A stretch of 64,000 nucleotides of DNA, taken from NCBI RefSeq assembly GCF_011250645.1, contig NZ_JAANNO010000015.1, positions 1-64,000 on the forward strand, given 5' to 3'. Each line of letters begins with the position of its first letter. The stretch's first letter is position 1. The notes beneath the pieces were generated by a model. The model was given only the letters and a program-made list of their open reading frames with translations, did not search any database and had not been told where the DNA came from. The stretch comes from Motilibacter aurantiacus. GTDB lineage: Bacteria > Actinomycetota > Actinomycetes > Motilibacterales > Motilibacteraceae. The translations under genes were made by a program, and so were the position numbers. Shown here piece after piece: positions 491 to 22,319 of the stretch.

Positions 491-2533
491 GTGCGGCGAG
501 AGCGCCTGACGCGCCGGCTCATCGGCCTTGCACTGGCTCTGACCGGCTTGTCGGCCGGGCTCCAGTCGGCTGCATCGGCCGCGGAGGACGCGCCGCTCCT
601 GCTGCACAGGGGTCACATCGACCTCTTCGACGTGACCTACGACGCCGAGGCGCGCAACCTCGACCTCCGGGTCAAGGACGACACCAAGCTGTACGCCGAG
701 ACCGCCGTGCTGCGCGAGCCCGAGGACGTCGTGATCCCGGTCGACCCCGCCATCACCACGACCACCGTCCCCGTCGACCCCGACTACGGCTTCCTGGGCG
801 CCGCGGGCCAGCCGATCTACGTGCTGCAGCAGAACGGGCGCAACGCCGACGGCATCCGCCAGCCGTGGCCGGGCTGGGGCGCCGAGACGGTGCCGGGCGG
901 GCTGCTGCAGGACGATTTCGTCGTGCTCGACGTGGACGTCGAGGGCCCGGGCAAGCTGTTCGCGTACTCCAGCGGCGCCGGCGCCCCCCGGGTGTACGTC
1001 GACGGCAACTTCGACTGGCCGGACGACATCGAGACGAACGTCGGCTCACACGTGCACACGAACTGGGCCTTCACCTCCCAGGGCACCTACACCCTGCGGG
1101 TCAGGGCCAAGGCGACCACGGTGGACGGGCGGGCGCTCGTCAGCCCCACCTCGACGTACACCTTCGTCGTGGGAACGCCCGCCGAGCAGCCCCCGCCGCC
1201 CCCGACGACGCTCTCGATCGCCGGGGCGGGCGTGACCTACGCACCGGGCGACCAGGTCGCGCTCGAGGCGCTGCAGCAGCCCGCCACCGAGCTGACCGAG
1301 TACATGTGGGAGTCGCGCCGGCCCGGCGCCGCCGACTTCTCCTCGGTGCTGCTCAGCGGTTCCGGGACGTACGGCTTCCCCGCGCGGCTCGCCGACGACG
1401 GCACGCAGTACCGGGTCTCGCTGCTCGACCGGCACCGTGACGTGGTGGCCGTGTCGGCGCCGGTCAACGTCCGGGTCCGCGAGCCCGGCTCCGGGCAGGT
1501 GCCCGCGGGTGACGCCTGTGCCCAGGACGGCGTCGAGGTGATGACGGAGGGCCATGCCGACCTCGCCCTTCGGCTCCGGGACGACGGAGAGCTCGTCGCC
1601 CAGGTGAAGGACGGGCGAGCCGTCCCCGCGGTGTGGCGTGGCCCGTCACAGGTGGCCTTCAGACTCGACGCGGCGGCGCGCGGGACGGTGTCCCCCCGTG
1701 CCTCCCTGTCCTTCCTCGGCCGTCCCGGCGACCCGGTGTGGACGATCGGCCAAACCCAGCAGGCGGGCGTCCCCTGGCTGGGGTGGAGCACGGACGACGT
1801 CACGTTGACCGACGCCGTCGGCGACGAGATCGGCTGGCGGATGGACCGGGCGCGTGTGACGGGCCCCGGGGACGTCTACCTCTTCCAGTCCGACGCCTTC
1901 GGCAGCGTGCTGCCGCTGCTCGGCACGGGCGCCGGCTGGCCCGCGACGACGACGATCTCGCGCGCCACGCACTCGCACGGCACGTGGGCCTTCACGGCTC
2001 CCGGCCGCTACTCGGTGCCGTTCACCTACACGGCGACGTCCTACGGCCGTGAGACCTCGACCTCGGCCACCCTCACCTTCCTCGTCGGGCCGTGCGCTTC
2101 CGCCACCCCGTCCCCGCAGCCCGGCCCGGGAGCCTCGACCCCGCCGCCGCCCCCTGCCCCTGCGGTGGCCGGGTCCCCGCCGGCACCTCCGTCCCCGGCG
2201 CCCGCCGTCACCCCGCCGCCGGTGACCGTGCAGGACCGCGAGCCGCGCCCGGCCGTGCTGGCTCGCGCCCGGCTGACCGGGACGCCCGTCGTCGGGTCCC
2301 GTCTGACGTGCCGGCCCGCCTTCTCCGGCGGCACCGTGCGCTCCTACCGCTGGCTGCGTGACGGCAGGGCCGTCCAGGGGCGGTCTTCGGCACGCCGGCT
2401 GGTGGCCGCCGACGCAGGGCACCGCATCCGCTGCCGAGTGGTCGTGGCCAACGCGGCCGGCACCGCGTCCTCCCTGTCGCCCACCCGGACGGTGAAGCCG
2501 CGTCCCGAGCGTGCACGGACACGCGTCGGCTGA
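491..2533 (+). CDS. Secreted protein with two choice-of-anchor M (TIGR03769-like) domains and Ig-like domains
   Basis: 680 residues from a GTG start after a GAGGAG ribosome site. Residues 1-31 form a Sec signal peptide (arginines, LIGLALALTGL core, ASA-A cleavage). The first domain (about 38-230) starts with HRGHIDLFDVTYD and contains HVHTNWAF. A linker and Ig-like domain follow (about 235-335). A second domain copy (about 350-545) starts with TEGHADLALRL and contains HSHGTWAF. A Pro-rich linker and a final Ig-like domain (about 590-670) end the protein. Such domains occur in actinobacterial surface proteins encoded with metal-uptake ABC systems, often under Zur. No LPXTG or terminal membrane anchor is visible, so it is probably released or held non-covalently. 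The paired His motifs are candidate zinc ligands (inference). Confidence 0.75.
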   Translation: MRRERLTRRLIGLALALTGLSAGLQSAASAAEDAPLLLHRGHIDLFDVTYDAEARNLDLRVKDDTKLYAETAVLREPEDVVIPVDPAITTTTVPVDPDYGFLGAAGQPIYVLQQNGRNADGIRQPWPGWGAETVPGGLLQDDFVVLDVDVEGPGKLFAYSSGAGAPRVYVDGNFDWPDDIETNVGSHVHTNWAFTSQGTYTLRVRAKATTVDGRALVSPTSTYTFVVGTPAEQPPPPPTTLSIAGAGVTYAPGDQVALEALQQPATELTEYMWESRRPGAADFSSVLLSGSGTYGFPARLADDGTQYRVSLLDRHRDVVAVSAPVNVRVREPGSGQVPAGDACAQDGVEVMTEGHADLALRLRDDGELVAQVKDGRAVPAVWRGPSQVAFRLDAAARGTVSPRASLSFLGRPGDPVWTIGQTQQAGVPWLGWSTDDVTLTDAVGDEIGWRMDRARVTGPGDVYLFQSDAFGSVLPLLGTGAGWPATTTISRATHSHGTWAFTAPGRYSVPFTYTATSYGRETSTSATLTFLVGPCASATPSPQPGPGASTPPPPPAPAVAGSPPAPPSPAPAVTPPPVTVQDREPRPAVLARARLTGTPVVGSRLTCRPAFSGGTVRSYRWLRDGRAVQGRSSARRLVAADAGHRIRCRVVVANAAGTASSLSPTRTVKPRPERARTRVG

Positions 2534-2560: not shown

Positions 2561-2572
2561 GCACGATCGTGC
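2561..2572. promoter_or_regulatory. 12-bp perfect palindrome upstream of the MFS gene
   Basis: GCACGATCGTGC lies in the 149-nt gap between the surface-protein gene and the MFS gene. It does not look like the Zur boxes. It could be a regulator site or a short hairpin; no strong terminator is seen in this gap, so read-through from the upstream Zur-type promoter is possible. Confidence 0.25.
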
Positions 2573-2682
2573 GTGCTTCGGTCCGCGCGTCTCCTCCCGG
2601 GCCCGGCCGCCCCGTACGATGCGGGGACGGCGGGCCGGTCGACGAGGGCAGGGCCGGCACGGAGCGGGCAGAAGGAGCGCGT

Positions 2683-3966
2683 GTGACGGCTGCCCGGCGG
2701 ACGAGCGCGGCGCCGGCAGGGCTGGCCCGATGGGGCATCGTCCGCGAGCTGCGCGCGGCCGAGCCCGTGGTGCGCCTCCTGGTGCTCACCCAGCTGGCGT
2801 TCAACGTCGGCTTCTTCATGGTCCTGCCGTACCTCTCGGTCCACCTCAGCGACGACCTGGGGCTGGCGGCCGCGTCCGTCGGGCTCGCGCTCGGCCTTCG
2901 GACCTTCAGCCAGCAGGGGCTCTTCGTCGTCGGAGGCACGCTCGCGGACAGGTACGGCGTGAAGCCGGTCGTGCTGGTCGGATGCGGCCTGCGGGTGGCC
3001 GGTTTCGCCGGGCTCGCGGCCGCCGACTCGGCACCGGCCGTCTTCGCCGCGACGGCCCTGACCGGGTTCGCCGCCGCGCTGTTCTCGCCCGCGGTGGAGT
3101 CCGCGCTCGCCCTGGAGAGCGGCAAGGCGGAGGCCGCGGGGGGCACCTCCCGGGTCGACGCCTTCGCGCTGTTCTCGGTGGGTGGGCAGATCGGCGCTTT
3201 CACGGGGCCGCTGCTGGGGACCGTGCTGCTCCTCGTGGACTTCCGGGCGGCCTGCGCCGTCGCCGCCTGCGTCTTCGTCCTCATCCTGCTGGCCCACGCG
3301 CGCTGGCTCCCGGCCGCCCCGCCGGCCCACGAGGGCGAGCGCCTGCTCGACGGGTGGGGCGAGGTGCTCGCCAATCGCGCGTTCCTGCTCTTCGCGCTGG
3401 CGTACAGCACCCAGCTCGTGGCGTACAACCAGCTCTACCTGCTCCTCCCGCTCGAGGTCGACCGGGCGTGGGGCTCGCAGGCGCCCCTCGGGTGGCTGTT
3501 CGCCGCGTCCTCGGTGCTCGTGGTCCTCGCACAGCTGCCGGTGACGGCCTGGTGCCGCAGCCGGCCCCTCGGCCGCGTCCTGCCCGGCGGGTTCCTGCTC
3601 ATGGCGGCCGCGTTCGCAGTCGTCGCGGCGACGGTGTCCGCGCAGCGGCAGGGCTGGGTGGGCCTGCTGCCGGCGGCCGCGTTCGTCGTGCTGCTCACGG
3701 TCGGGGAGATGGTCGCGCTGCCGTTCGCCCGGGACCTGGTCCCCCGGCTGGCCGCGGAGCGCCGGCTGGGAACGTACTTCGGCGTCCTGTCCTCGCTGTC
3801 CGGCGTGGCGGTGCTCGGGGCGAGCACGGGGATCGGTGCGCTCGTGCAGTCGACGGACGGGGGCCCGTGGAGCCCGGTTCCCTGGCTGGTCGCCGGCGCC
3901 CTGCCGCTGGTCAGCGCGCTGGCGCTGTCACGGCTGCTGCGGTCCCTGGAGCTCGGCACCCGCTGA
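2683..3966 (+). CDS. MFS drug:H+ antiporter-family exporter (MdtH/CntE-like)
   Basis: 427 residues with about 12 hydrophobic segments. The loop-2/3 motif is recognisable in GGTLADRYGVKP (about residues 85-97). The GTG at 2683 is preferred over the upstream ATG-like starts because AAGGAG lies just upstream and the upstream 38 residues are Arg/Pro/Gly rich without structure. The protein resembles the DHA1-type single-polypeptide exporters found in metallophore (staphylopine-type) clusters. Its 3' end overlaps the convergent permease gene by 39 bp. Next to a Zur-controlled importer, export of a metallophore is an attractive guess, but drug export or import of another solute is possible. Confidence 0.7.
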   Translation: MTAARRTSAAPAGLARWGIVRELRAAEPVVRLLVLTQLAFNVGFFMVLPYLSVHLSDDLGLAAASVGLALGLRTFSQQGLFVVGGTLADRYGVKPVVLVGCGLRVAGFAGLAAADSAPAVFAATALTGFAAALFSPAVESALALESGKAEAAGGTSRVDAFALFSVGGQIGAFTGPLLGTVLLLVDFRAACAVAACVFVLILLAHARWLPAAPPAHEGERLLDGWGEVLANRAFLLFALAYSTQLVAYNQLYLLLPLEVDRAWGSQAPLGWLFAASSVLVVLAQLPVTAWCRSRPLGRVLPGGFLLMAAAFAVVAATVSAQRQGWVGLLPAAAFVVLLTVGEMVALPFARDLVPRLAAERRLGTYFGVLSSLSGVAVLGASTGIGALVQSTDGGPWSPVPWLVAGALPLVSALALSRLLRSLELGTR

Positions 3967-5781
3967 GCGGGAGCGCCAGCGGCGAGGAAGGCCCGGTGCC
4001 AGGGCGGAGGCGCTCACCGCCAGGACCGACAGGGCGACGAGCGACAGGGCCGGCGCGACCACCACCCACGGAGCCCGCTCGACGTAGGGCATGCCCTCGG
4101 CGAGCACCAGGCCCCAGTCCGGGGTGGGGGGTTGCGGGCCCAGCCCCAGGAACCCCAGCCCGGCGAGCGCGAGCGCGACGCCCGGCAGGCGCAGGAAGGC
4201 GTTGCGCAGCACCGGCCCGGCCACCATCGGCAGCACGTGGGCCAACAGCACCCGCATCCTGCCGACTCCCAGCACGGGGAGCACGCGCACGTGCGGCTGC
4301 GCGACGGCCTCGGCGACGAGCGCGCCCGTGTGCGAGGCCAGGGGCGCCCAGCTGACCAGCAGCACGGCCACCGCCGCGCCGGTGGACGACGGCCCGGTCA
4401 GCGCGGCGACGAACAGCCCGGCGAGGACCGGGGGCGCGGCGTTGGCGACCTCGACCGGCCCGGCGGTGACGTTCGGCAGCAGGCCCGCGAGCAGCCCCAC
4501 GACGTACGCCGCGAGGCACACGGCGACGGCGGTGGCGATGGTGGAGCCCGCCCCCTGCCCCAGCCGGGCCAGCAGGTCCCGTCCCGACGCGTCCGCCCCC
4601 AGCAGGAGGTCGCCCGACGGGCCGGCCAGCCGGCCGCGGTCAGCGGCGTAGGGGTCGCCGGCCAGCCCGCCGAGGACCAGGGCGGCCAGCAGCAGCAGCG
4701 CGGTCAGCGGGACGAGCCGGTCACGGCGGCGGACGACGTGGCCGGAGGAGGGGATGACCAGCCCGCCCGCCCGGGCCGCTCGGCCCAGCACCGCCCGACG
4801 GGTCACGTCGGTCGCGACACCGAGCAGGGCGCCGAGGGCGATGAGCAGGAGCATCCCGGCCTGCAGCACCGGCAGGTCCTGGGTCTGGGCCGCGCCCAGG
4901 GTGGCGCGCCCCAGCCCCGGGATGGCGAACACCCGCTCGACGGCGACCGCTCCACCTACCAGCCCGACGACCACCAGCCCGACCTGAGGGAGGACGGGGG
5001 GGACGGCGCGCAGCAGCAGCCCGCGGGCCAGCGCCGCCCGCGGCGCTCCTGCCGCCGTCCAGGTGGTCACCCACGTCTCGGCGCCGCTGGTCGCGACCGC
5101 GTCCGCGACCAGCCGCCCGACCAGGCCGCCCGCAGGCAGGCCCATCGCCAGCGCGGGCAGGACGGCGCTCGACGGCCCGTCCCAGCCGTACGGGGGCAGC
5201 AGCCCCAGCCAGACGGACACCCCGACGAGCAACGCCGTGGCCAGCAGGAACTCCGGCAGCGCTGTCAGCGCGGCGGCGACGGCACCGGAGGTGCGGCGAG
5301 GCGCGCCCCGCAGGACGCCGCGCAGGGAGGGCACGACCAGCAGCGCCGCGACGGCGAGGACGACCACGAAGGAGAAGGCCATGAGCGTGACCGACACGCC
5401 GAGGGCGGAGAGCGCTCCCGGCAGCACCTGCGCCCCGCTGACCCAGGACGTGCCGAAGTCGCCGCGCAGCACGTCGGAGGCCCAACGCCCGAGCAGGGCG
5501 AGCGGCCCGTCCGCGAGCCCGAGCTGCTCCCGCACGGCCGCGAGCGCCTCGGGCGTGGCCTCCTGGTCCGCGGAGCGCCCGCGCAGCACGGTCAGGGCCG
5601 GGTCGCGTCCGGAGAGCCAGGGCAGCAGCCCGACGACGGCGACGACGGCGAGGACCGTCAGCACCCGGGACAGCAGCCGGACCGCCGACGCGGCCCGTCG
5701 CTCGCGTCGGCGCGGCTGCATCGTCCGGGACGGGGGGCTCGCCGCGGGAGGCAGCGTGACCGCGGGCACCGTGGGGGTCAC
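3928..5781 (-). CDS. Fused double permease of a peptide/nickel-type ABC importer (DppB-DppC fusion)
   Basis: 617 residues, about twice the normal permease length. The N-terminal half (about 35-335) has the DppB layout: one early membrane helix, an extracellular stretch with GDFGTSWVSG, then helices ending in a permease loop near AAGAPRAALARGLLLRAVPP. The C-terminal half (about 350-600) has the DppC layout with GDPYAADR, LLGADASGRDLLARL and the second permease loop around VLPVLGVGRMRVLLAHVLP, followed by LAGLGFLGLGP. Fusion of the two subunits into one chain is uncommon. Its GTG start overlaps the stop of the binding-protein gene (GTGA), so the two are translationally coupled. Confidence 0.85.
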   Translation of the reverse strand: MTPTVPAVTLPPAASPPSRTMQPRRRERRAASAVRLLSRVLTVLAVVAVVGLLPWLSGRDPALTVLRGRSADQEATPEALAAVREQLGLADGPLALLGRWASDVLRGDFGTSWVSGAQVLPGALSALGVSVTLMAFSFVVVLAVAALLVVPSLRGVLRGAPRRTSGAVAAALTALPEFLLATALLVGVSVWLGLLPPYGWDGPSSAVLPALAMGLPAGGLVGRLVADAVATSGAETWVTTWTAAGAPRAALARGLLLRAVPPVLPQVGLVVVGLVGGAVAVERVFAIPGLGRATLGAAQTQDLPVLQAGMLLLIALGALLGVATDVTRRAVLGRAARAGGLVIPSSGHVVRRRDRLVPLTALLLLAALVLGGLAGDPYAADRGRLAGPSGDLLLGADASGRDLLARLGQGAGSTIATAVAVCLAAYVVGLLAGLLPNVTAGPVEVANAAPPVLAGLFVAALTGPSSTGAAVAVLLVSWAPLASHTGALVAEAVAQPHVRVLPVLGVGRMRVLLAHVLPMVAGPVLRNAFLRLPGVALALAGLGFLGLGPQPPTPDWGLVLAEGMPYVERAPWVVVAPALSLVALSVLAVSASALAPGLPRRWRSRSAGAELQGPQQP

Positions 5782-7286
5782 CCTGCGGTGGTCTCGGCCG
5801 TGATGAGCTGGCGCTCGCGCGGGTCACGGGCGACGCCGGAGAAGTCGCCGGACTCGCCCTGGATGACCCGTTCGTGCAGCATCGGGATCGCGGCGTCGGA
5901 CTCGAGGATCAGCCGCTCGGCCTCCAGGGTGGCCGCCCGGCGCGCGTCGCCCGTACCGGCGGCCGACGCCTTGCGCAGCGCGGCATCGATCTCGGGGTCG
6001 CACAGCTGGGCGATGTTGAAGGAGCCGTCGCAGGCGAAGTCGGAGTACATGTACGCGACGGGGTCGCCGGAGTCCAGCACGGTGGCCCGGGACAGGATGA
6101 ACGCGTCGAAGTCGCCGGCCAGCGCGTCGGCCTCGATCTGGGCGTACTCGCGCACCTCCTGGCGCACCCGGAAGCCGGCGGCCTCCAGCTGCTGCTCCAG
6201 CTGCACGGCGACCTCCGGCAGCTCCGCCCGGTCGGTGAAGGTGGCGAGGACGATCTCGGCGCCGGCCGGGTCGGCGGCGGGCCGCTCGCTGCGCGCGGGC
6301 CGCCCCTCGGCAGCCCACGGCAGCGCCGGCCCCAGCAGCCCCTCGGCCACGTCGGCGCGGCCCTCGTACACGTTCTCCACGATCGTCTCGCGCTGCACGG
6401 CGCCCCGGGCAGCGGCGCGCATCCCGGCGTCCGCGAAGACGCCCCGCTCGGTGTTGAGGTACAGCGTGTTGGTCCGGGGCATCGGCACCTCGAACACCTG
6501 CTCGGGCTCGAGCAGCGACGCCTGCGAGACCGGGACCGCCTCGACCACGTCCGCGGCCCCCGTCCGCAGTGCTGCGGCGCGCGCCGTGCCGTCCGGCACG
6601 AAGTCGACGTCGATGCCCGCGACCCTGGCCCGCTCGCCCCAGTAGCCGTCGAACCGGTTGAGCGTCGCGCCCACGGTCCCGTCGACGGCCACCAGCTCGA
6701 AGGGCCCGGTCCCGTGGCCGACCGGGTCGACGGTGCCGTCCGGCCCGTACGCGGCGGCCGCCAGGATCGACAGCTGGGGGCTGGACATCCGCTGCGGCAC
6801 CAACGGGTCGGCATCGCCGGTGCGGACGAGCACCGCCTCGCCCGGCGCGGCGGGGTCGGGCTGCGCCGTGAGCTCGACACCGTCGAGGATGCGCGGCTTG
6901 GGGCTCGCCTTCGTCGCGGCGGTGAGCACGGCGGCGACGTGTTCTGCCGTCAGGGGCGTCCCGTCGTGGAAGGTCACGCCCTGGCGCACCTCGAAGCGCC
7001 ACGTACGGGGGTCGACCTGCTCCCACGCGGTCGCGAGCGCGGGCTGCGCGTCCCCGGCCTCGTCGAGGACGACGAGCGTCTCGGCGGTGGACCAGCGGGA
7101 GAGCTTGAACGCGTCGTCGCTGAACGGGGTGAGCCCGGAGCGGGGCGGCTGCAGCATGGCGACACTGATGCGCTCGCCCGACGCGGTGGGAGCGGCGCCG
7201 TCGGGCTCGTCCGCCGAGGAGGAGAAGCAGCCGCTGAGGAGCAGGGCGGTCATGCCGATCGCGGGCAGGGCGTAGCGGGAGTTCAC
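5778..7286 (-). CDS. Solute-binding lipoprotein, family 5 (peptide/nickel/metallophore type)
   Basis: 502 residues from a GTG start. A lipoprotein signal ends in the lipobox LLSG-C with Cys20. The mature protein has SBP family 5 hallmarks: WRFEVRQGVTFHDGTPLTAEHV (about 105-126), GTGPFELV and a late MYSDFACDGS segment. Family members bind peptides, nickel-heme, or opine metallophores such as staphylopine. In this operon (two ATPases, this protein, a fused permease) behind a Zur-type box, a zinc complex or zincophore is the most likely ligand. The gene is followed directly by the permease with a 4-nt overlap. The ligand cannot be read from sequence alone. Confidence 0.85.
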   Translation of the reverse strand: MNSRYALPAIGMTALLLSGCFSSSADEPDGAAPTASGERISVAMLQPPRSGLTPFSDDAFKLSRWSTAETLVVLDEAGDAQPALATAWEQVDPRTWRFEVRQGVTFHDGTPLTAEHVAAVLTAATKASPKPRILDGVELTAQPDPAAPGEAVLVRTGDADPLVPQRMSSPQLSILAAAAYGPDGTVDPVGHGTGPFELVAVDGTVGATLNRFDGYWGERARVAGIDVDFVPDGTARAAALRTGAADVVEAVPVSQASLLEPEQVFEVPMPRTNTLYLNTERGVFADAGMRAAARGAVQRETIVENVYEGRADVAEGLLGPALPWAAEGRPARSERPAADPAGAEIVLATFTDRAELPEVAVQLEQQLEAAGFRVRQEVREYAQIEADALAGDFDAFILSRATVLDSGDPVAYMYSDFACDGSFNIAQLCDPEIDAALRKASAAGTGDARRAATLEAERLILESDAAIPMLHERVIQGESGDFSGVARDPRERQLITAETTAG

Positions 7287-7323: not shown

Positions 7324-8064
7324 TCAGGGCAGGGCGGGCAGGGCCGTGACCAGAGCTCTGGACGACGGGTGCTGCGGGGCGCGGAGCAGCTGCCGGGTGG
7401 GCGCGTCCTCGACGACCCGGCCCTCGGCGAGCACGACGGTGCGGGCGCAGAGCGCGGCGACTGCTGCCACGTCGTGGGACACGAGCACCAGGGCGGTGCC
7501 CTGACGCTCGAACGCCGCGCGCAGGGAGGCCAGGACCTGGGCCCGCAGGGGCAGGTCAAGGCCGCTCACCGGCTCGTCGGCCAGCAGCAGGGAGGGCCGG
7601 AGGACCAGTGCCCGGGCGAGGGCCACCCGCTGCGCCTGGCCGCCGGACAGCTGGGGAGCGCGGGCGTCGCGCAGGCCGCCCGGGAGGTCGACGGCGTCGA
7701 GCGCGTCGTCGACGAGAGCGCGCTCACGCCGGCGCTCGTCAGGGGTGCCCAGGCGTCGCACGGGCAGCGCGACGAGCTCGCGGACCGTTCTGCGCGGGTC
7801 GAGCGTGGAGGCGGGGTCCTGCGGCACGTACTGGACGAGGCGGCGGAACCAGCCCAGCCGGCGCGGGGAGCCGGGGCGGACCTGCCGCCCGTGGCACGTC
7901 ACGGTGCCGGCGTCGGGCGGCTCGAGGGCGAGCAGGGTGCGCAGCAGCGTCGTCTTCCCCGCGCCGGACTCGCCGACGACGCCGAGGCGCTCTCCGTCGG
8001 CCACGGCCAGGTCGACGTCGCGCAGCAGCCGCAGCGACAGGCCCTCGCAGCGCAGCAGCGTCAT
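7324..8064 (-). CDS. ABC importer ATPase (DppF-type)
   Basis: 246 residues with Walker A GESGAGKT (31-38), Q-loop region QYVPQDPASTLDP, signature LSGGQ (139-143), Walker B LLLADEP (159-165) and the switch His in LVSHDV. It lacks the C-terminal oligopeptide-transporter extension with conserved cysteines that is seen in the second transporter of this window. The ATG start overlaps the stop of the first ATPase (ATGA), so both subunits are likely made in equal amounts to form the heterodimer driving the fused permease. Confidence 0.85.
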   Translation of the reverse strand: MTLLRCEGLSLRLLRDVDLAVADGERLGVVGESGAGKTTLLRTLLALEPPDAGTVTCHGRQVRPGSPRRLGWFRRLVQYVPQDPASTLDPRRTVRELVALPVRRLGTPDERRRERALVDDALDAVDLPGGLRDARAPQLSGGQAQRVALARALVLRPSLLLADEPVSGLDLPLRAQVLASLRAAFERQGTALVLVSHDVAAVAALCARTVVLAEGRVVEDAPTRQLLRAPQHPSSRALVTALPALP

Positions 8065-8846
8065 CGCGCCTCCGCCGCCGCGTACAGGTGGGCCCCGACC
8101 GTTCGGGCAGCGGCGACCAGCTCGCGCGTGCGCTCGTGGCGGGGGCTCGCGAGAACGTCCTCGACCGGCGCGTGCTCCACGACGCGGCCGTCGGAGAGGA
8201 CGACGAGCTCCTCGCAGAGGCTCGCGGCGACGGCGACGTCGTGGGTGACGAAGAGCAGGGCCCGGCCGGTGCCGCGCCCCGTCCGCTCGCGGAGCAGGCT
8301 CACGACGCCCGCCTGGGTGACCACGTCGAGCGCGGTCGTCGGCTCGTCCGCCACGAGCAGCGGCGAGGGGGTCATCAGGGCCAGGGCGAGGCACACGCGC
8401 TGCCGCATGCCGCCCGACAGCTCCGACGGCAGCGCCTCCGCGACGCGTCCGGGGTCGCGGAAGCCCAGGGACCCGAGGGCGTCGAGGACGCGGGCGCGGG
8501 CGGAGGCACGGGTGCCGCCCAGGGGCAGGGCCAGCTGGCGGCCGACGGGCTGGAGCGGGTGCAGGGCCCCGGCGGAGTCCTGACGCACCACACCCGGGCG
8601 GGCGTCCGGCGGGCGCCGGGCCGCGGGGAGCCCCAGGATCTCGGCGCCGGCCAGCCGCACGCTGCCGGTGGCCCGGAGGGCGGGTGGCAGCAGCCCGAGG
8701 ACCGCCGCGACGGTCAGGGACTTGCCCGACCCGGAGGCGCCGAGGACGCCGACCCGGCGCTCGGGCTCGACCACGAGGTCGACCCCGTGCAGCAGACGGC
8801 CGTCGGCGCTGTCGACGCGGAGTGCGCGGACGTCGAGGAGGGGCAC
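8061..8846 (-). CDS. ABC importer ATPase (DppD-type), first gene of the Zur-type operon
   Basis: 261 residues with Walker A GASGSGKS (36-43), signature LSGGM (143-147), Walker B LLVADEP (163-169) and switch His in VTHDV. I chose the GTG at 8846 because GGAGGAGGG sits about 8 nt upstream. An ATG at 8885 would overlap the promoter -10. The gene opens the operon 8846-3928 (ATPase, ATPase, binding protein, fused permease). Confidence 0.85.
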   Translation of the reverse strand: MPLLDVRALRVDSADGRLLHGVDLVVEPERRVGVLGASGSGKSLTVAAVLGLLPPALRATGSVRLAGAEILGLPAARRPPDARPGVVRQDSAGALHPLQPVGRQLALPLGGTRASARARVLDALGSLGFRDPGRVAEALPSELSGGMRQRVCLALALMTPSPLLVADEPTTALDVVTQAGVVSLLRERTGRGTGRALLFVTHDVAVAASLCEELVVLSDGRVVEHAPVEDVLASPRHERTRELVAAARTVGAHLYAAAEAR

Positions 8847-8883: not shown

Positions 8884-8912
8884 ACTGTAGACGAGAACGA
8901 TTACGGTTTCAT
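8884..8912 (-). promoter_or_regulatory. Promoter with Zur-type operator for the ABC importer
   Basis: On the minus strand an ATGAAA -35 (8912-8907), a 17-bp spacer and a TACAGT -10 (8889-8884) are seen. The Zur-like palindrome GAGAACGATTACGGTTTCAT (8893-8912) covers the -35 and most of the spacer. The expected leader before the GTG at 8846 is about 30 nt. The same layout occurs at 424-452 and 12775-12803. Confidence 0.65.
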
Positions 8913-9016
8913 TCAGCAGGGGAGAGGGCCGGCGGATGCGGCCGACCCGCCGCGGATGCACGATGGTGCGGGCAACGAGGCGCTGCGCGAGGCGCAGCCG
9001 GGAGTGGAGGTCGGCA

Positions 9017-9310
9017 GTGGCACTGCCTTTCGGAGCAGGCGTCGTACGCAAGGGCGTCGGGGCCGTCGTGACCGGGGTGGTCGGCGTCGCCGTCGTGCGC
9101 CTCGCCGAGCGCCGTGGTGCCCCGGCCGCTCGCCGGGTCGCCGTCGAGGTGACGAAGGCCGGCATTCGTGGCGGGCGTGCCCTGGGCGAGGGCGTGGAGC
9201 GCACCCGGCTCGCGGCCGGCGACGTGGCGGCGCAGGCTCGGGAGGAGATGGGCGAGCAGGCACCGGTGCCCGGCACCTCCGCGACCGGGCACGACGGTCA
9301 CCAGCACTGA
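9017..9310 (+). CDS. PacL-like (DUF1490) partner of a metal P-type ATPase
   Basis: 97 residues from a GTG preceded by GGAGG. The N-terminal half has a membrane segment (GVGAVVTGVVGVAVV, about residues 13-27) followed by basic, helical sequence as in DUF1490 proteins. The C-terminus GHDGHQH is His/Asp rich, like the metal-binding tail of mycobacterial PacL proteins. In mycobacteria these small membrane proteins scaffold the P-ATPases CtpC or CtpG and bind zinc. Here the gene lies 19 nt upstream of a CtpC-like ATPase gene, which strongly supports the assignment. Confidence 0.8.
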   Translation: MALPFGAGVVRKGVGAVVTGVVGVAVVRLAERRGAPAARRVAVEVTKAGIRGGRALGEGVERTRLAAGDVAAQAREEMGEQAPVPGTSATGHDGHQH

Positions 9311-9329
9311 CGAGCGGAAGGGGCCGACG

Positions 9330-11492
9330 GTGACGGCGACCGTGCAGGAGCAGCAGGATTCAGGAACTGTACGTGTGGTGTCCGACGCCGCCGGCCGGAT
9401 GCGCGTGGAGGCGGACCTGCTCCGCGGGTCGACGGCGCGGTCGGTGGCGCTCGAGGACCTGCTCGACGGGACGCCCGGGGTGCTGGCCTGCCGGGCCTAC
9501 CCGCGCACGGGCAACGTGCTGGTCTGGTACGACCCCGAGCTGCTCGGGGCCGAGACGGTCCTGGCTGCGGTCGAGTCGGTTCAGCAGGTCGACGCGCTGG
9601 CCGTGGCTCCGCGCCAGGCCCGCTCCGCGGAGGTCCCGGACGGCGACGTCCTCCGGCTGGTGGCCGGTGCCGCCGCGCTCGTCCTGCTGGGCGGGCGCCG
9701 GTACGTCCTGCGCCGGCCGCCACTGCTCGGGCCGCAGGCCCGCGGCGTCACGGCGGGCGTCGCCGTCTTCACCGGCTACCCGTTCTTCCGGGGAGCGGTG
9801 AGGAGCCTCGCCGGTGAGCGGGCCGCCGGCACCGACGCGCTCGTCACGTCGGCGACCGTGGCGAGCCTGCTGCTCCGGGAGAACGTCGTCGCGCTGACCG
9901 TGCTGTGGCTGCTCAACATCGGCGAGCTCCTGCAGGACCTCACGCTGCGCCGTACCCGCAAGGCCATCTCCGAGCTGCTGGCCGGGACCGTGACGACCGC
10001 GTGGGTCCGTCACGACGGGGTGGAGCAGCAGCTGCCCATCGACCGGCTGCGGGTGGGCCACGAGGTCGTGGTCCACGAGCAGGCGACGATCCCGGTCGAC
10101 GGCGTGGTCGTCGACGGGCAGGGCGTGGTGGACCAGGCCGCCATCACGGGCGAGAGCCTCCCGGTCTCCCTGGCGACGGGTGACACCGTCCACGCCGGCA
10201 GCGTGAACCTGCGGGGGCGGCTCGTGGTCCGCGCCACGGCCACCGGGCGCGACACCGCCGTCGGCCGGATCATCGCGCGAGTCGAGCAGGCGCAGGAGGA
10301 CCGCGCCCCCGTCCAGACGGTGGGCGAGCGGTTCTCGCGCCGGTTCGTGCCGGCGTCGTTCGCGCTGGCGGGGGCGACCCTGCTCGTCACCCGGGACGTA
10401 CGCCGGGCGATGACCATGCTGCTCGTCGCCTGCCCGTGCGCAGTGGGGCTGTCCACCCCGACCGCGATCAGCGCCGCGATCGGCAACGGCGCACGGCGCG
10501 GGATCCTCATCAAGGGCGGGTCGCACCTCGAGGCCGCCGGGCGGATGGACGCGCTCGTCATCGACAAGACGGGGACGCTGACCCTCGGCAAGGCGGTGGT
10601 CACGAACGTCATCTCGTTCGCGGAGGACTGGGACCCGATGCAGGTCCTGGCCTACGCCGCCAGCTCCGAGATCCACTCCCGGCACCCGCTGGCGCAGGCC
10701 GTCATCCGCAACGCCGAGGAGCGCCGGCTGGAGATCCCGCCGCACGAGGAGTGCGAGGTGCTGCTCGGGCTCGGGATGCGGACGGAGGCCGACGGGCGCG
10801 TGCTGCTGCTCGGCTCGCTGGCGCTCATGGAGCGGCAGGGCGTGGACGTGGGCGGTGAGGCCCGCCAGTGGCTGGACCGGCTGCAGCACGCGGCCGAGAC
10901 CCCGCTCCTGCTCGCGGTGGACGGCCGGCTGGTCGGCCTCGTGAGCTTGAAGGACGCCGTCCGCCCCGACGCCCGGGAGGCGCTGGACCGGCTTCGCGCC
11001 ACCGGTGTGCGCCGCGTCGTGATGCTGACCGGTGACTCGCCGGCCACGGCGGCCGCCGTCGCCGCGGAGCTCGGCATCGTGGAGTGGTCGGCCGAGGCGA
11101 TGCCGGAGACGAAGCAGGACGTCGTCCGCGCGCTGCAGGCCGAGGGCTACGTCGTCGGGATGGTCGGTGACGGCACGAACGACGCGCCCGCGCTCGCCCT
11201 CGCCGACATCGGGATCGCGATGGGCGTCTCGGGGACCGACGTCGCCCTGGAGACGGCCGATGTCGCGCTGATGGGCGAGGACCTGACCCGCCTGCTCGAC
11301 CTGCGCGACCTCGGCGGCCGGACGCTGGGCGTCATCCGGCAGAACTACGGCATGAGCATCGCGGTCAACGGGCTCGGGCTGCTCGTCGGCGCCGGCGGCG
11401 CGCTGTCCCCGGTCGCGGCGGCGATCCTGCACAACGCCTCGTCGATCGCCGTCGCGGGCAACAGCACCAGGTTGGTCCGCTACCGCGTCTGA
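9330..11492 (+). CDS. ctpC: P1B-type metal-transporting ATPase, CtpC-like
   Basis: 720 residues from a GTG with GCGGAAGGGG upstream. An N-terminal about 90-residue metal-binding-like fold is followed by membrane helices, actuator TGES (273-276), the ion-path motif ACPCAVGLSTPTA with CPC at 368-370, phosphorylation site DKTGT (412-416), the HP motif in SRHPLA (about 452) and the hinge GDGTND (613-618). The sequence through the CPC and the C-terminal NYGMSIAVNG segment closely follows mycobacterial CtpC, for which Zn/Mn efflux or Mn metallation roles have been proposed. The pair PacL-CtpC forms an operon transcribed away from the Zur-type importer. A strong terminator follows. Confidence 0.88.
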   Translation: MTATVQEQQDSGTVRVVSDAAGRMRVEADLLRGSTARSVALEDLLDGTPGVLACRAYPRTGNVLVWYDPELLGAETVLAAVESVQQVDALAVAPRQARSAEVPDGDVLRLVAGAAALVLLGGRRYVLRRPPLLGPQARGVTAGVAVFTGYPFFRGAVRSLAGERAAGTDALVTSATVASLLLRENVVALTVLWLLNIGELLQDLTLRRTRKAISELLAGTVTTAWVRHDGVEQQLPIDRLRVGHEVVVHEQATIPVDGVVVDGQGVVDQAAITGESLPVSLATGDTVHAGSVNLRGRLVVRATATGRDTAVGRIIARVEQAQEDRAPVQTVGERFSRRFVPASFALAGATLLVTRDVRRAMTMLLVACPCAVGLSTPTAISAAIGNGARRGILIKGGSHLEAAGRMDALVIDKTGTLTLGKAVVTNVISFAEDWDPMQVLAYAASSEIHSRHPLAQAVIRNAEERRLEIPPHEECEVLLGLGMRTEADGRVLLLGSLALMERQGVDVGGEARQWLDRLQHAAETPLLLAVDGRLVGLVSLKDAVRPDAREALDRLRATGVRRVVMLTGDSPATAAAVAAELGIVEWSAEAMPETKQDVVRALQAEGYVVGMVGDGTNDAPALALADIGIAMGVSGTDVALETADVALMGEDLTRLLDLRDLGGRTLGVIRQNYGMSIAVNGLGLLVGAGGALSPVAAAILHNASSIAVAGNSTRLVRYRV

Positions 11493-12876: not shown

Positions 12877-13245
12877 TCACCCGCCGGGCACGACCGACTC
12901 GGCCAGGACGCCCGGCAGCCGGGGGAGGACGGGACCGGCCACCGACGCGCCCGTCACCCATCGCACCAGTGCTGCCCGCCGCTCGTCGCCCTGCACGCAG
13001 GCGAGCCACGTGCCGACCTGCCCTGCGGAGCCGCGTGCCCCGACCAGGCCGACCGCGCCGTACGCGCAGAGCCCGGGGCAGTCGAGGCGCAGGAGCACGG
13101 CTCCGGACGAGCGGCGGACCGCGTCCCCCAACCCGACCAGCGGGTCCTCCGACGCCAGGCCGCGCAGCGCCCGGCACCGGTGGCCGTCGCAGATGCCGAC
13201 GACGAGACGGGCGCCGCCCGTCCCGGTCCGGGCGCTTCGGCTCAC
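12877..13245 (-). CDS. Small thioredoxin-like [2Fe-2S] ferredoxin-type protein
   Basis: 122 residues from a GTG that overlaps the stop of the COG0523 gene (GTGA). Cysteines at 19, 24, 56 and 60 (patterns CDGHRC and CPGLC), plus Cys83, follow the thioredoxin-like 2Fe-2S ferredoxin layout. The first stretch RLVVGICDGHRC looks like the first beta strand and cluster loop. It is the third gene of the zinc-starvation operon L31-COG0523-ferredoxin. A role in electron transfer or metal handling is plausible; the cluster type is inferred from spacing only. Confidence 0.6.
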   Translation of the reverse strand: MSRSARTGTGGARLVVGICDGHRCRALRGLASEDPLVGLGDAVRRSSGAVLLRLDCPGLCAYGAVGLVGARGSAGQVGTWLACVQGDERRAALVRWVTGASVAGPVLPRLPGVLAESVVPGG

Positions 13246-14339
13246 GCCACCCCTTCCAGCGGGCCGAGCCAGGCGTCGAAGCCGTCGTCGCGCCCCACCC
13301 AGCGCTCGAGCCCCGACGCCAGCTCCGCGTCGGTCATGAGGGCGGTGTCGAACGCTCGTCGCAGCAGGGCCGGGTCGTGGTCGACCGCGGTGACGAGCAG
13401 CCGGGTCTCCCGCTCGGCCGTCGGCCCTGCGTGCGTCGGCGAGGACCAACTGCCGATGCCCCCGATGCTGAGCTGCCCGCCGGCGCCGTCCCAGGCGACG
13501 ACCACGTCGGGCCGCGTCGGCAGCCAGAGGCAGCCGCGCCCGCGCAGGGGGCCCGCTCCCAACGCCTCGATCTCCTCGAGCAGCCGGGCCGGGTGGAGGG
13601 GGCGCCACGACCTCAGGTCGAGCGTCCACACCCCGGCCCGGTCGTCGGGGGCCCGGGAGGGCAGGCAGCGCGGGTCGCCGCGGCGCAACAGCTCCTCGCG
13701 TCGGGCCCGCCGGGCCGCCACGTCCTCGGCCAGCGCGCTGCCGGACAGCCCGTTGGCGTGGAGCAGGCAGTGCCGCGCCCCCGCCGGCGCGAGGTGCTCG
13801 AGCAGCGCTGTGGCCTGCGCGGGGGCGAACCCGGGCAGCAGCAGCACGTCGGCGAGCTCGAGCTGGTGCGCCAGCGCTTCACCGACAGCACGGTTGTCCT
13901 CGGAGGTCAGTGCGAGGCCGCGCTCGCTCAGCAGGTCGTCACCGAGCAGGTCGTCCACCGCGGACAGGCCGTCGAGCACGCTGACCAGGGGCCCGAGGCG
14001 CACCCGGGCGCGGACGAGCGCGTGCACCACCGGCAGCGGCTCGGCCGAGACCGGCAGGGCGAGGACGACGGCCGGCGTTCCGTTGCCCGTGGCCAGCGCC
14101 CGCCGCACGGCCGGCAGGACGTCCTCGCGCAGCGCGCACGAGAGGCAGGCGTGCTCGAGCGGGACCCAGACGTCCTCGCGGACGCCGTCGCTGCCGTAGA
14201 CCACGCGGCGCAGCCCGTCGGGCAGCAGGTCGTGCTGCACGACGAGCGCCCCGGGCAGGTCGCACAGGAGGTCAGCGGCCGCCACCCCCCGAAGCACCGG
14301 GTCGATCGAGGACAGGACCACGACGGCCGGGGAGCTCAT
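13242..14339 (-). CDS. COG0523/CobW-family protein without a Walker A motif
   Basis: 365 residues. The middle and C-terminal parts follow the COG0523 zinc metallochaperone family, including a [12 protein letters not shown] segment (the family's CxCC-type region, here CxxC) and a CobW C-terminal domain (about 270-360). The expected N-terminal GxxGxGKT nucleotide loop is missing: the start reads [20 protein letters not shown]. Similar loop-less copies are known to me from actinobacterial zinc-starvation loci. Loss of GTP hydrolysis is therefore likely, unless the nucleotide binds differently. ATG overlaps the L31 stop (ATGA). Confidence 0.75.
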
Positions 14340-14605
14340 CGGGGCGTGCCCTTCGCGGTGCCCGAGGCCCCGTAGCGCCGGTTGAAGCGCTCCACCCGTC
14401 CCTCGCTGTCCAGCACGCTCGCACGCCCGGTCCAGAAGGGATGGCTGGCGGAGGAGACGTCGACGTCGATCACCGGGTAGGCGTGGCCGTCGTCCCACAT
14501 CACCGTCTGGCGGCTCGTCGCCGTGGACCGGGTCAGGAACGACATGCCCGCCGCCCGGTCCCGGAAGACGACGGGGTGGTAGTCGGGGTGGATGTCTCGC
14601 TTCAC
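14336..14605 (-). CDS. rpmE2: 50S ribosomal protein L31 type B, zinc-independent
   Basis: 89 residues starting [14 protein letters not shown], ending with a basic tail. No cysteine is present, so this is the C-minus L31 that replaces zinc-binding L31 when zinc is scarce. Starts at a GTG behind GAGGAGG. It is the first gene of a three-gene overlapping operon and faces the rpmG gene across a Zur-type box, the classical arrangement of a Zur-controlled ribosomal zinc-sparing locus. Confidence 0.92.
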
Positions 14606-14628
14606 GGGGCCTCCTCGAGCAGTACGCT

Positions 14629-14646
14629 AACGACAATCATTATCGA
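14629..14646. promoter_or_regulatory. Zur-type operator between rpmE2 and rpmG
   Basis: ACGACAATCATTATCGA is an imperfect palindrome matching the Zur consensus in core and arms. It lies in the divergent 53-nt region between the L31 start and the 13-codon leader ORF, so it can repress both directions. Clear -10/-35 hexamers could not be fixed here. Confidence 0.65.
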
Positions 14647-14879: not shown

Positions 14880-14938
14880 TTGCCGTCCATCGCCCCACCC
14901 GCTAGTGTCGGTGGGGCAGATGAAAACCGTTTCCATGA
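14880..14938 (+). promoter_or_regulatory. Promoter followed by a Zur-type operator, upstream of the aldehyde dehydrogenase
   Basis: TTGCCG (14880-14885), a 17-bp spacer and TAGTGT (14903-14908) form a good sigma-70-type promoter. The Zur-like box TGAAAACCGTTTCCATGA (14921-14938) lies just after the expected start site, a blocking position. The next plus-strand gene begins at 15192, giving an about 275-nt leader. The 324-nt gap 14868-15191 holds no gene that I trust. A loose 8-bp inverted repeat (14892-14899/14910-14917) overlaps the promoter. Confidence 0.5.
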
Positions 14939-19222: not shown

Positions 19223-20281
19223 TCAGGCTTCGTCGGCAACGCTGATCTCCTCGCGCTGGAGCGGCGCACGGTCGGCCGCGGAGAGCTCGTCGAGGCGGTG
19301 CAGCCAGCAGCTCACCCGCTGGCCGCCCTCGGCGACCGCGTCGCCCGGGTCGCGGGCGGGGCAGACCTGCATGGCGTCGGGGCACCGCGGGTGGAACCGG
19401 CAGCCGGTGGGCGGGTTGGCGAGGTCCGGCGGGGCGCCCGGGATGGAGGTCAGCTCGGTGGTCTCCAGCGAGATCGTCGAGGCCAGGAGCGACCGCGTGT
19501 AGGGATGGGCCGGGTCGTTGAAGACCTGCCGTGCGTCGCCCTGCTCGACGATCTTGCCGGCGTACATGACGGCGACCCGGTCGCAGGCCTCCGCCACGAT
19601 CCCGAGGTTGTGGGTGATGAGCAGCAGCGCGGTGTCGGAGGTCTTGCGCAGGTCCGACAGCAGCGCCAGCACCTGTGCCTCGACGAGGACGTCGAGGGCG
19701 GTCGTCGGCTCGTCCGCGACGATCAGCGCCGGCTTCAGCACAAGGGTCAGCGCGATCATGATGCGCTGCCGCATGCCGCCGGAGAACTCGTGGGGGAACT
19801 GCTTGTGCCGGGACGGCGGGATGCCGGTGGCCCGCAGCGCCTCCAGGGCGCGCTCCTCCCGCTGCGCCTTCGACAGCGACGGCTCGTGGGTGCGCAGCAG
19901 CTCGTCGAAGTGGTCGCTCACCCGCATGAGCGGGTTGAGCCGGGTCATCGGCTCCTGGAACACGAGCCCGAGCTCGCTGCCGCGCATGGCCCGCAGCCGG
20001 TCCGGAGGGAGGGCGACGACGTCCTCCCCGCGCAGCAGGGCCTTGCCGGTCATCCGGGCGCCCTCGGGCAGCAGCCCGAGCAGTCCGCGGCCGAGCGTGG
20101 ACTTGCCGCACCCGGACTCGCCGACCAGCCCGACGGACTCCCCGGCGTTGATGACGAGGTCGACGTCGTCCACGGCCTTGACGGGGCCGCGCGGGCTGCC
20201 GTACCAGATGCGCAGCCCGTCGACGGAGATGACGGGGCCTGCGTGCTGGGGCGCCGGCGAGGCGTCGAGGAGCGCGCTCAC
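19223..20281 (-). CDS. Oligopeptide/dipeptide ABC transporter ATPase (OppD/DppD-type)
   Basis: 352 residues. Walker A GESGCGKS, Q-loop FQEPMTRLNPL, signature FSGGM, Walker B LIVADEP, ITHNLG switch, then the oligopeptide C-terminal extension with GCRFHPRCPDAMQVC whose cysteines often hold an iron-sulfur cluster or structural metal. GTG start overlaps the upstream permease stop (GTGA). Confidence 0.9.
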   Translation of the reverse strand: MSALLDASPAPQHAGPVISVDGLRIWYGSPRGPVKAVDDVDLVINAGESVGLVGESGCGKSTLGRGLLGLLPEGARMTGKALLRGEDVVALPPDRLRAMRGSELGLVFQEPMTRLNPLMRVSDHFDELLRTHEPSLSKAQREERALEALRATGIPPSRHKQFPHEFSGGMRQRIMIALTLVLKPALIVADEPTTALDVLVEAQVLALLSDLRKTSDTALLLITHNLGIVAEACDRVAVMYAGKIVEQGDARQVFNDPAHPYTRSLLASTISLETTELTSIPGAPPDLANPPTGCRFHPRCPDAMQVCPARDPGDAVAEGGQRVSCWLHRLDELSAADRAPLQREEISVADEA

Positions 20282-21303
20282 GGGCCGACCTCCTCGGTTG
20301 TGCGTCGTGTCGGTGTGGACCCGTCGTCGGTGTCGTCCGGCATCATCACGGTGGTGACGATGCGCCGCCGCAGGGTCGGGTTGATGATCTCGTTCAGGCC
20401 CTCGCCCACGAGCGTGAGCGCGACGACCAGGACAGTGATCGCGAGTCCCGGGAAGAGCGCCGTCCACCAGATGCCCGCGCCCGCGTCCGAGATGGCCCGC
20501 TGCAGGTCGTAGCCCCACTCGGCGGCCTCGGTCGGCTGGATGCCGTAGCCCAGGAAGCCGAGCCCGGCCAGCGTGAGGATCGCGTCGGCGGCGTTCAACG
20601 TCGCGATGACCGGCACGCTGTGCACGACGTTGGAGAACAGGTAGCGCATCACGATGGTGCGCGGCTTCGCGCCGATCGCGCGTGCCGCCTCGACGTACGT
20701 CGCCTCCCGCGCGCTGAGCGTGCTCGCCCGCACCACTCGGAAGTACTGCGGGATGTAGACGGCGGTGATCGCTATCGCAGCGGTCCAGACGCCGCCGCCG
20801 ATCCACGTGTCGGACAGGATGAAGGCGATGACGATCGCGAGCAGGAGATAGGGAAAGGCGAAGAGCGCATCCATGAAGAGGACGAGCACGCGGTCGAGCC
20901 AGCCGCCGCGGTAGCCGGAGATGAGCCCGAGCGGCACGCCGACCACGACCGAGAAGACGACCGCGAGGGCGACCACCTCGAGTGCGGTGCGTGCGCCGTA
21001 CACGGTGCGCGACAGCACGTCCAGCGACTGCACCGTGGTCCCGAACAGGTGCGTGCCGTCGGGTCCCTCGAGCTTGGGGAAGCGCGCGTCCGCGTCGCGG
21101 TACTGGTCGAAGTCGTACGGCGCGATCCAGGGCGCGAGGAGGGCGAGCACCACGAAGAACGCGGTGACCGTGATGCCGCCGATCAGCAGCCAGCGGGGCA
21201 CGCCGCGTGCGCGTCGGAGCGGGGCAAGGACGCGGCCGCGCCGCTTCGCCGACGGGGCGGGAGGTGTCGTGGGCGCCTGGAGGGCCAGGGGGTCGGCGGC
21301 CAT
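20278..21303 (-). CDS. Dipeptide-type ABC transporter permease (OppC/DppC)
   Basis: 341 residues. About 40 polar N-terminal residues, first membrane helix at about 39-61, then a periplasmic loop with HLFGTTVQSLDVLSR and five more helices. The EAA-type coupling loop is VEAARAIGAKPRTIVMRYLF, followed by LAGLGFLGYGIQP. The ATG shares one base with the stop of the partner permease (TGATG). Confidence 0.9.
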   Translation of the reverse strand: MAADPLALQAPTTPPAPSAKRRGRVLAPLRRARGVPRWLLIGGITVTAFFVVLALLAPWIAPYDFDQYRDADARFPKLEGPDGTHLFGTTVQSLDVLSRTVYGARTALEVVALAVVFSVVVGVPLGLISGYRGGWLDRVLVLFMDALFAFPYLLLAIVIAFILSDTWIGGGVWTAAIAITAVYIPQYFRVVRASTLSAREATYVEAARAIGAKPRTIVMRYLFSNVVHSVPVIATLNAADAILTLAGLGFLGYGIQPTEAAEWGYDLQRAISDAGAGIWWTALFPGLAITVLVVALTLVGEGLNEIINPTLRRRIVTTVMMPDDTDDGSTPTRRTTEEVGP

Positions 21304-22319
21304 CAGTAGCGGATCCTCGGGTCGACCAGTGCGTTGACGATGTCGATGAGCAGGCTCACTCCGACGACGATGAGCGCGAACATCGTGATGATGCCCTGCA
21401 CCGCGGTGTAGTCGCGGTCGTTGAGGTAGCCGACGAGCTCGTTGCCGATCCCGGGCCAGTTGAAGGTCTGCTCGGTGAGCACCGCGCCGCCGAGCAGGGC
21501 GGCGACCTGCAGGCCCATGACCGTGATGACGGGCACCAGGGCGTTGCGCAGTGCGTGCTTGCGGACGACCCGTCCCTCGGCGATGCCACGGGCGCGGGCC
21601 GCTTCCACGTAGTCGCTCTGCAGCGTCTGGATGATGTTGACCCGAACGAGACGGATGAGGACGCCGACGACGAGCAGCCCGAGCGTCACGGCCGGCAGGA
21701 CGAGGTGGTGCAGCGCGTCGCGGAAGGCCGTCATGTCCCCGGCCAGCAGGGCGTCGACGAGCAGGATGTGGGTCTTCTCCGGGATCGAGGCCTGGATGCG
21801 CGGGCTCGCCTGCCCCGAGGTCGGGAACCAGCCGAGGCTCTTGCCGAAGAAGAGCTGGAAGAGCAGCCCCACGAAGAAGACCGGCGCGGCGAAGGTGACG
21901 ATGCCGAAGAGGCGGATGCCGACGTCGTCGAGCCGGTCGCGGCGACGGCCGGACCACAGGCCCAGCGGCAGGCCGACCAGGAACGCGACGATGACGGCTG
22001 CGACCGTCAGGGTCAGCGTGGCGCCGCCGTTGTCGACGACGATCTCGCTGACGGCCCGGTTGTCGGTGATCGTGCGCCCGAAGTCCAGCTGCACCACCTG
22101 TCCGAGGTAGTCGACGTACTGCCGCCAGACCGGCACGTCAAAGCCCGCCGCGGCCCGTCGCTCGGCCAGCTCCTCGGCGGAGAGCCGGCCGCCGAGCGCG
22201 CTGCTGACCGGGTCTCCGGGCGCCACGCGCATGAGCAGGAAGACGACGCTGAGCAGGATCAGCACCATCGGGACGACGAGCAGCAGCCGTACGCCGACAT
22301 AGCGCGCCAGCGAGCCCAC
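21303..22319 (-). CDS. Dipeptide-type ABC transporter permease (OppB/DppB)
   Basis: 338 residues from GTG. Typical first segment RYVGVRLLLVVPMVLILLSV, then APGDPV, LDFGRTITDNRAV and the coupling loop YVEAARARGIAEGRVVRKHA. Ends with EQTFNWPGIGNELVGYLNDRD-like and IVNALVDPRIRY motifs of the family. Located after a hairpin that separates it from the binding-protein gene. Confidence 0.9.
   Translation of the reverse strand: MGSLARYVGVRLLLVVPMVLILLSVVFLLMRVAPGDPVSSALGGRLSAEELAERRAAAGFDVPVWRQYVDYLGQVVQLDFGRTITDNRAVSEIVVDNGGATLTLTVAAVIVAFLVGLPLGLWSGRRRDRLDDVGIRLFGIVTFAAPVFFVGLLFQLFFGKSLGWFPTSGQASPRIQASIPEKTHILLVDALLAGDMTAFRDALHHLVLPAVTLGLLVVGVLIRLVRVNIIQTLQSDYVEAARARGIAEGRVVRKHALRNALVPVITVMGLQVAALLGGAVLTEQTFNWPGIGNELVGYLNDRDYTAVQGIITMFALIVVGVSLLIDIVNALVDPRIRY

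Follow-up and report, generated by a model that had tools for sequence, protein, structure and literature searches.

The 64,000-nucleotide window analysed here, from contig NZ_JAANNO010000015.1 of Motilibacter aurantiacus, carries an operon for an ABC importer whose last gene codes for an unusual permease (Table 1). The genes are arranged in the order DppD-like ATPase, DppF-like ATPase, binding lipoprotein and permease. Two of the joins are 4-bp overlaps, and one of these is formed by the GTG start codon of the permease gene and the stop codon of the binding-protein gene. Both ATPases have intact Walker A, signature and Walker B motifs.

Table 1. Features of the importer locus and its surroundings, in window coordinates
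Feature	Position	Strand	Remarks
Choice-of-anchor-M/TIGR03773 surface protein	491-2533		
MFS transporter, MdtH-like	2569..3966	plus	convergent with the permease gene
Fused permease	3928..5781	minus	617 codons, GTG start, frame without internal stop
C half, DppC/NikC-like	3994..4737	minus	residues ~349-596; NCBIfam and fold alignment
C-half coupling loop	4264..4299	minus	alignment of fused proteins
Join of the halves	4728-4767		about residues 339-352
Linker between the halves	4738..4767	minus	~10-15 residues, basic, low confidence in model
B half, DppB/NikB-like	4768..5676	minus	residues ~36-338; NCBIfam and fold alignment
B-half coupling loop	5017..5085	minus	alignment of fused proteins
Solute-binding lipoprotein, family 5	5778..7286	minus	probable GTG start; LSGC lipobox
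ATPase, DppF/NikE-like	7324..8064	minus	ATGA overlap with preceding gene
ATPase, DppD/NikD-like	8061..8846	minus	probable GTG at 8846; ORF extends to 8885
Degenerate Zur-like element	8892..8912	unstranded	ATGAAACCGTAATCGTTCTCG on the minus strand, ~46 bp before first gene
DUF1490 protein, then P1B-type metal ATPase	8936-11492		divergent from the importer operon
MRF-like CobW-family protein	13242-14636		strict Zur box upstream at 14921-14935
Second dipeptide-type transporter, C permease	20278-21957		C lies within this frame
Second dipeptide-type transporter, B permease	21303-22319		

A permease with both halves on one chain

The initial annotation recognized DppB-like and DppC-like halves fused in one frame, and Pfam, NCBIfam and fold alignment all agree with this assignment. 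Two BPD_transp_1 stretches are found by Pfam in the single protein, and NCBIfam assigns residues 36-330 to NikB/Opp1B and residues 364-587 to NikC/Opp2C, near the full length of the models. As N-termini vary between relatives, the true start might be as much as about 35 codons downstream of the GTG. An AlphaFold model built with 24 fused homologues has a mean pLDDT of 77 and a pTM of 0.75, with the C half modelled worse than the B half. Model residues 28-339 align with DppB/OppB chains (Z 21-24) and residues 345-599 with DppC/OppC chains (Z 14-17; Foldseek, VIA-align). Both permease halves are complete by sequence and by fold. The linker that joins them is presumably cytoplasmic because the stretch is basic, and its poor order in the model fits this placement.

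The separate coupling loops described for the two halves could each be located in an alignment of fused proteins. The loop of the B half carries W-x3-W-x3-G in place of the usual A-A-R-x-K/R-G, and the residues concerned (W237, W241 and G245) are invariant among 24 aligned fused proteins.

The name Dpp, which was initially given to the fused halves, is suitable as a class label but not as an identity. B-kind and C-kind BPD_transp_1 halves are present, here on one chain, and the operon supplies an SBP_bac_5 protein and two ABC_tran proteins, which is the composition of the Dpp/Opp/Nik class. However, the nearest NCBIfam models for the halves and for both ATPases are of the Nik, Opp1 and Opp2 kinds, and all matches are far under the equivalog cut-offs. 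NikB scores 141 bits versus a cut-off of 447 and NikC 91.7 versus 358, and the Dpp models are likewise below their cut-offs (DppB, 38.9 versus 590 bits; DppC, 88.7 versus 483 bits).

Separate genes for the B and C subunits are usual in this class, though not strictly defining. Split permeases are indeed the norm among the relatives, as the initial annotation held, and the second dipeptide-type transporter in the window does have the split form. Having the two halves on a single chain fixes their pairing at 1:1, which could be useful for structural work, and it raises the question of why two different ATPases are retained.

Distribution and descent of the fusion

The fusion is not a lone local oddity but belongs to a clade that extends across two phyla and onto plasmids. 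A genome scan yielded 44 loci that encode a full-length or nearly full-length relative (L009-L053 without L052). The matched part is one open frame in 42 of these loci, three of which end at contig ends, and the frame is broken in the other two (L032 and L049). By protein search, 22 of the 296 genomes sampled from the bacterial class contain a full-length match, and the fusion also occurs in Gammaproteobacteria and Alphaproteobacteria. Matches to the permease were found in 509 plasmid records, of which 474 are from Klebsiella. In the three plasmid regions inspected, from Rahnella, Klebsiella and Thioclava, the annotation gives a single CDS of 1.7-1.8 kb.

This distribution bears on the concern, raised when the fusion was first noted, that an assembly or sequencing error had erased a stop codon between two genes. 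Nothing beyond general possibility favours such an artefact, and its chance is negligible, because the join is open in an independent assembly of the nearest relative, Motilibacter deserti (where the homologue is 93% identical and the join itself nearly so), in distant relatives and on finished plasmids.

Half-trees were made separately for B halves and C halves, each from 27 fused and 34 split sequences with midpoint rooting. In both trees, all 27 fused proteins fall on one side of one branch with support of 100/100. A single fusion event is the simplest reading that fits this pattern, with the split side being a limited sample and the root a midpoint root. The proteobacterial members branch from within the actinobacterial part of the group, a pattern suggestive of transfer between phyla.

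The nearest split pairs in the trees (L062 and L067) belong to NikABCDE-like operons that lie by an FAD oxidoreductase, an aldehyde dehydrogenase and a GntR regulator, or by a plain MFS gene. The loci of the nearest split relatives (L094 and L095) have amino-acid-type genes or a plain MFS gene as neighbours.

The order ATPase, ATPase, binding protein and permease recurs in three classes with an MFS gene nearby or inside. This MFS gene is a conserved partner in many relatives, and its position varies: in Rahnella and Klebsiella it is one of the operon's own genes, whereas in a Streptomyces-like locus (L096) it follows the permease gene. No ligand-biosynthesis gene is conserved next to the operon in the relatives. 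Most Lentzea loci and L096 have the binding protein and the permease with no recognizable ATPase nearby. In seven loci (L034, L036-L039, L045 and L096), a Zur-type box precedes an operon that codes for the binding protein and the fused permease but has no recognizable ATPase gene, and the ATPases may be shared or encoded elsewhere; L096 also has an extra GNAT gene at the front of its operon. In Winslowiella (L026), a second permease-like match is located downstream of the operon.

Our literature search, for which subscription papers were largely outside reach, found no description of the fused permease or of its operon. The family is apparently undescribed so far, and the annotation 'ABC transporter permease subunit' hides it.

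Zur-type boxes and zinc-related neighbours

The zinc context is the most informative feature of these loci, and it was absent from the initial annotation. Boxes were scored against consensus sequences that were fixed beforehand, none of them learned from the family loci. For proteobacterial loci we first used a symmetric enteric Zur core, and then the operator of E. coli znuA/znuC as taken from the K-12 sequence. The actinobacterial pattern consisted of the S. coelicolor Zur box and an older actinobacterial box quoted in PMC5472717. The interval scored around the operon start was 280 bp, and p values were derived by comparison with shuffles.

Of the 40 homologous loci that were scored, 30 have an operon-start box with p <= 0.05; many of the loci share a genus and so are not independent. 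The top-scoring box of the entire locus falls in this interval in 21 of 41 loci and, at the genus level, which allows for kinship, in 12 of 23 groups versus about 0.6 expected. In 13 proteobacterial loci, the sequence that best matches the E. coli operator begins 18-55 bp before the first gene, with p <= 0.05 in 11 of them. In Modestobacter, a second box is located after the permease gene, before an ATPase gene and a gene for an ABC-3 (ZnuB-type) permease. On a Klebsiella plasmid (L090 1-11060), a Zur-type box precedes this operon by 44 bp, and a hisI paralogue and a FUR-family gene are located upstream. A 2009 paper reported that the Klebsiella plasmid pLVPK has a Zur-regulated cluster (PMC2770081); the words ABC and permease are absent from its main text.

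A quarter of the tested loci have no significant box, including those of the most divergent fused proteins (L043 and L046). NikR and Fur patterns gave scattered weak matches only, and some of the Fur matches overlap Zur-type boxes. Fur-family boxes resemble each other, so a sensor for another metal might act at these sites. Given that boxes of the Zur type are found at the operon start family-wide, we predict that the operon is under Zur repression. The nearest split relatives carry no Zur box near the operon start, and zinc control therefore appears to go with the fusion.

In the Motilibacter window, the strict Zur pattern is not matched at the importer operon. The best operon-start score is 8/13 against the actinobacterial pattern (p 0.38), and the value for M. 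deserti is comparable (p 0.32). The degenerate element is a candidate operator by its position before the first gene and by its alignment with Quadrisphaera, and the corresponding M. deserti site aligns as well. The strict pattern is matched at three places in the 4.6 Mb genome, compared with 0 in the reversed control: one is at the MRF-like gene of the window and two are on contig 20 near a ZnuA/ZnuB cluster.

The genes around the operon are of zinc-regulon kinds, namely those for the choice-of-anchor-M/TIGR03773 surface protein, the DUF1490 protein with the P1B-type ATPase, and the MRF-like protein. Choice-of-anchor-M/TIGR03773 proteins, one of which is encoded in the window, are of a type linked to anchored-repeat ABC transporters. 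The genes for the DUF1490 protein and the P1B-type ATPase lie next to the operon; in M. smegmatis, the genes that respond to zinc include one for a cadmium-type P-type ATPase that has a small partner gene (PMC7174638). Thus, because of the surrounding zinc-regulon genes and the kinship with the family, the importer operon of Motilibacter is likely to be zinc-controlled, its own operator being degenerate.

Ligand, function and comparison with known systems

In E. coli DppA, R383 and D436 (precursor numbering) bind the carboxylate and the amine of the dipeptide (PMC12136057). The residues that align with them, R341 and D393 in the numbering of the 490-residue translation of 5778-7250, are invariant in all 45 binding proteins from fused operons, so that the pair which holds dipeptide termini in DppABCDF is present here. 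In E. coli NikA, these positions are occupied by Asp and Ala, so that the pair is lacking. The conservation of the pair suggests that the ligand is zwitterionic and resembles a peptide or an amino acid. C407 and C417 are likewise invariant (45 of 45) and absent from NikA, and they might form a disulphide or a metal site. Taking the ligand pair and the predicted zinc control together, a complex of zinc with the ligand would be the most economical cargo, and a plain dipeptide importer induced by zinc shortage is possible.

We consider it probable that the operon codes for a Zur-repressed type I ABC importer of the Dpp/Opp/Nik class, with a fused permease, that takes up zinc with a zwitterionic peptide-like ligand. 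An ancestral fusion would have placed both transmembrane subunits on one chain, which would fold as a built-in B:C pair on the DppD-like and DppF-like ATPases. The lipid-anchored binding protein would hand over the ligand. Zur would repress the operon family-wide, with Motilibacter being the member for which this is least directly indicated, and the importer would be made under zinc shortage. The cargo would most likely be a small zwitterionic peptide- or amino-acid-like ligand carrying zinc, with the MFS partner perhaps acting as exporter of the free ligand. The chances are about even that these importers make up a distinct, uncharacterized family for zinc and a peptide-like ligand, repressed by Zur, fused once, and moved between phyla and onto plasmids, including those of the hundreds of Klebsiella records.

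An ordinary nutritional importer of dipeptides or oligopeptides, for which the fusion would be neutral and the zinc context incidental, is an unlikely explanation, though a more probable one than the other alternatives. It would account for the conserved Arg/Asp pair and for the class membership of the permease and ATPases. However, the Zur-type boxes at operon starts in three classes, with two types of box, would be hard to explain, as would the zinc-regulon neighbours.

An importer for nickel or cobalt of the NikABCDE/Opp1/Opp2 type is quite improbable. The best NCBIfam models (NikB, Opp1B, Opp2C, NikD, NikE and Opp5A_nikA) would suggest it, but every score is far under its equivalog cut-off, the boxes match Zur rather than NikR patterns, and NikA does not have the conserved Arg/Asp pair.

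Slightly less probable still is a system of the Cnt type for an opine metallophore resembling staphylopine or pseudopaline, in which the importer would act with an MFS exporter and synthesis genes. The logic of importer, MFS partner and metal-linked regulator is shared, and Cnt models give weak matches to the binding protein and the ATPases, but the operon has no conserved synthesis gene next to it. The Staph_opine_DH model has 0 matches in the genome of the window and in eight others with the fusion, and it also has 0 in the controls.

Zinc import has mostly been described via ZnuABC and metallophores. If the zinc importer that we favour is real, a Zur-linked importer of the peptide type would represent a second, ligand-based route for zinc.

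Several known systems share some of these characteristics. E. coli DppABCDF (PDB 8Z1V-8Z1Z) also has two differing halves, two differing ATPases and a family 5 binding protein, and it resembles the fused family in the fold of each half and in the ligand pair of DppA. It differs in that its halves are separate genes, whereas the binding protein of the fused family is a lipoprotein and the B-half coupling loop carries the tryptophan motif. NikABCDE and the Opp1/Opp2 nickel and cobalt importers of NCBIfam supply the nearest models for the halves and ATPases, but they differ in the low scores, in binding-site residues, in box type and in having a split permease. E. coli DppABCDF is not known to be under Zur control.

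Permeases with two halves in one chain occur in other type I importers. ThiP is the fused type I permease of a thiamine importer. The alignment of our model with the two-in-one permease FbpB of Thermus (PDB 9J4R) covers 413 residues and extends through both halves (Z 19.5), but FbpB and ThiP belong to another importer family, for ferric ion and thiamine.

The staphylopine system CntABCDF/CntE combines a Nik/Opp-type importer with an MFS transporter and is metal-responsive. It has a split permease and dedicated synthesis genes, unlike the fused-permease operon. ZnuABC is under Zur control, as is predicted for the fused family, and adjoins the fused-permease operon in some relatives; however, its permease is from an unrelated family (ABC-3) and its cargo is free zinc.
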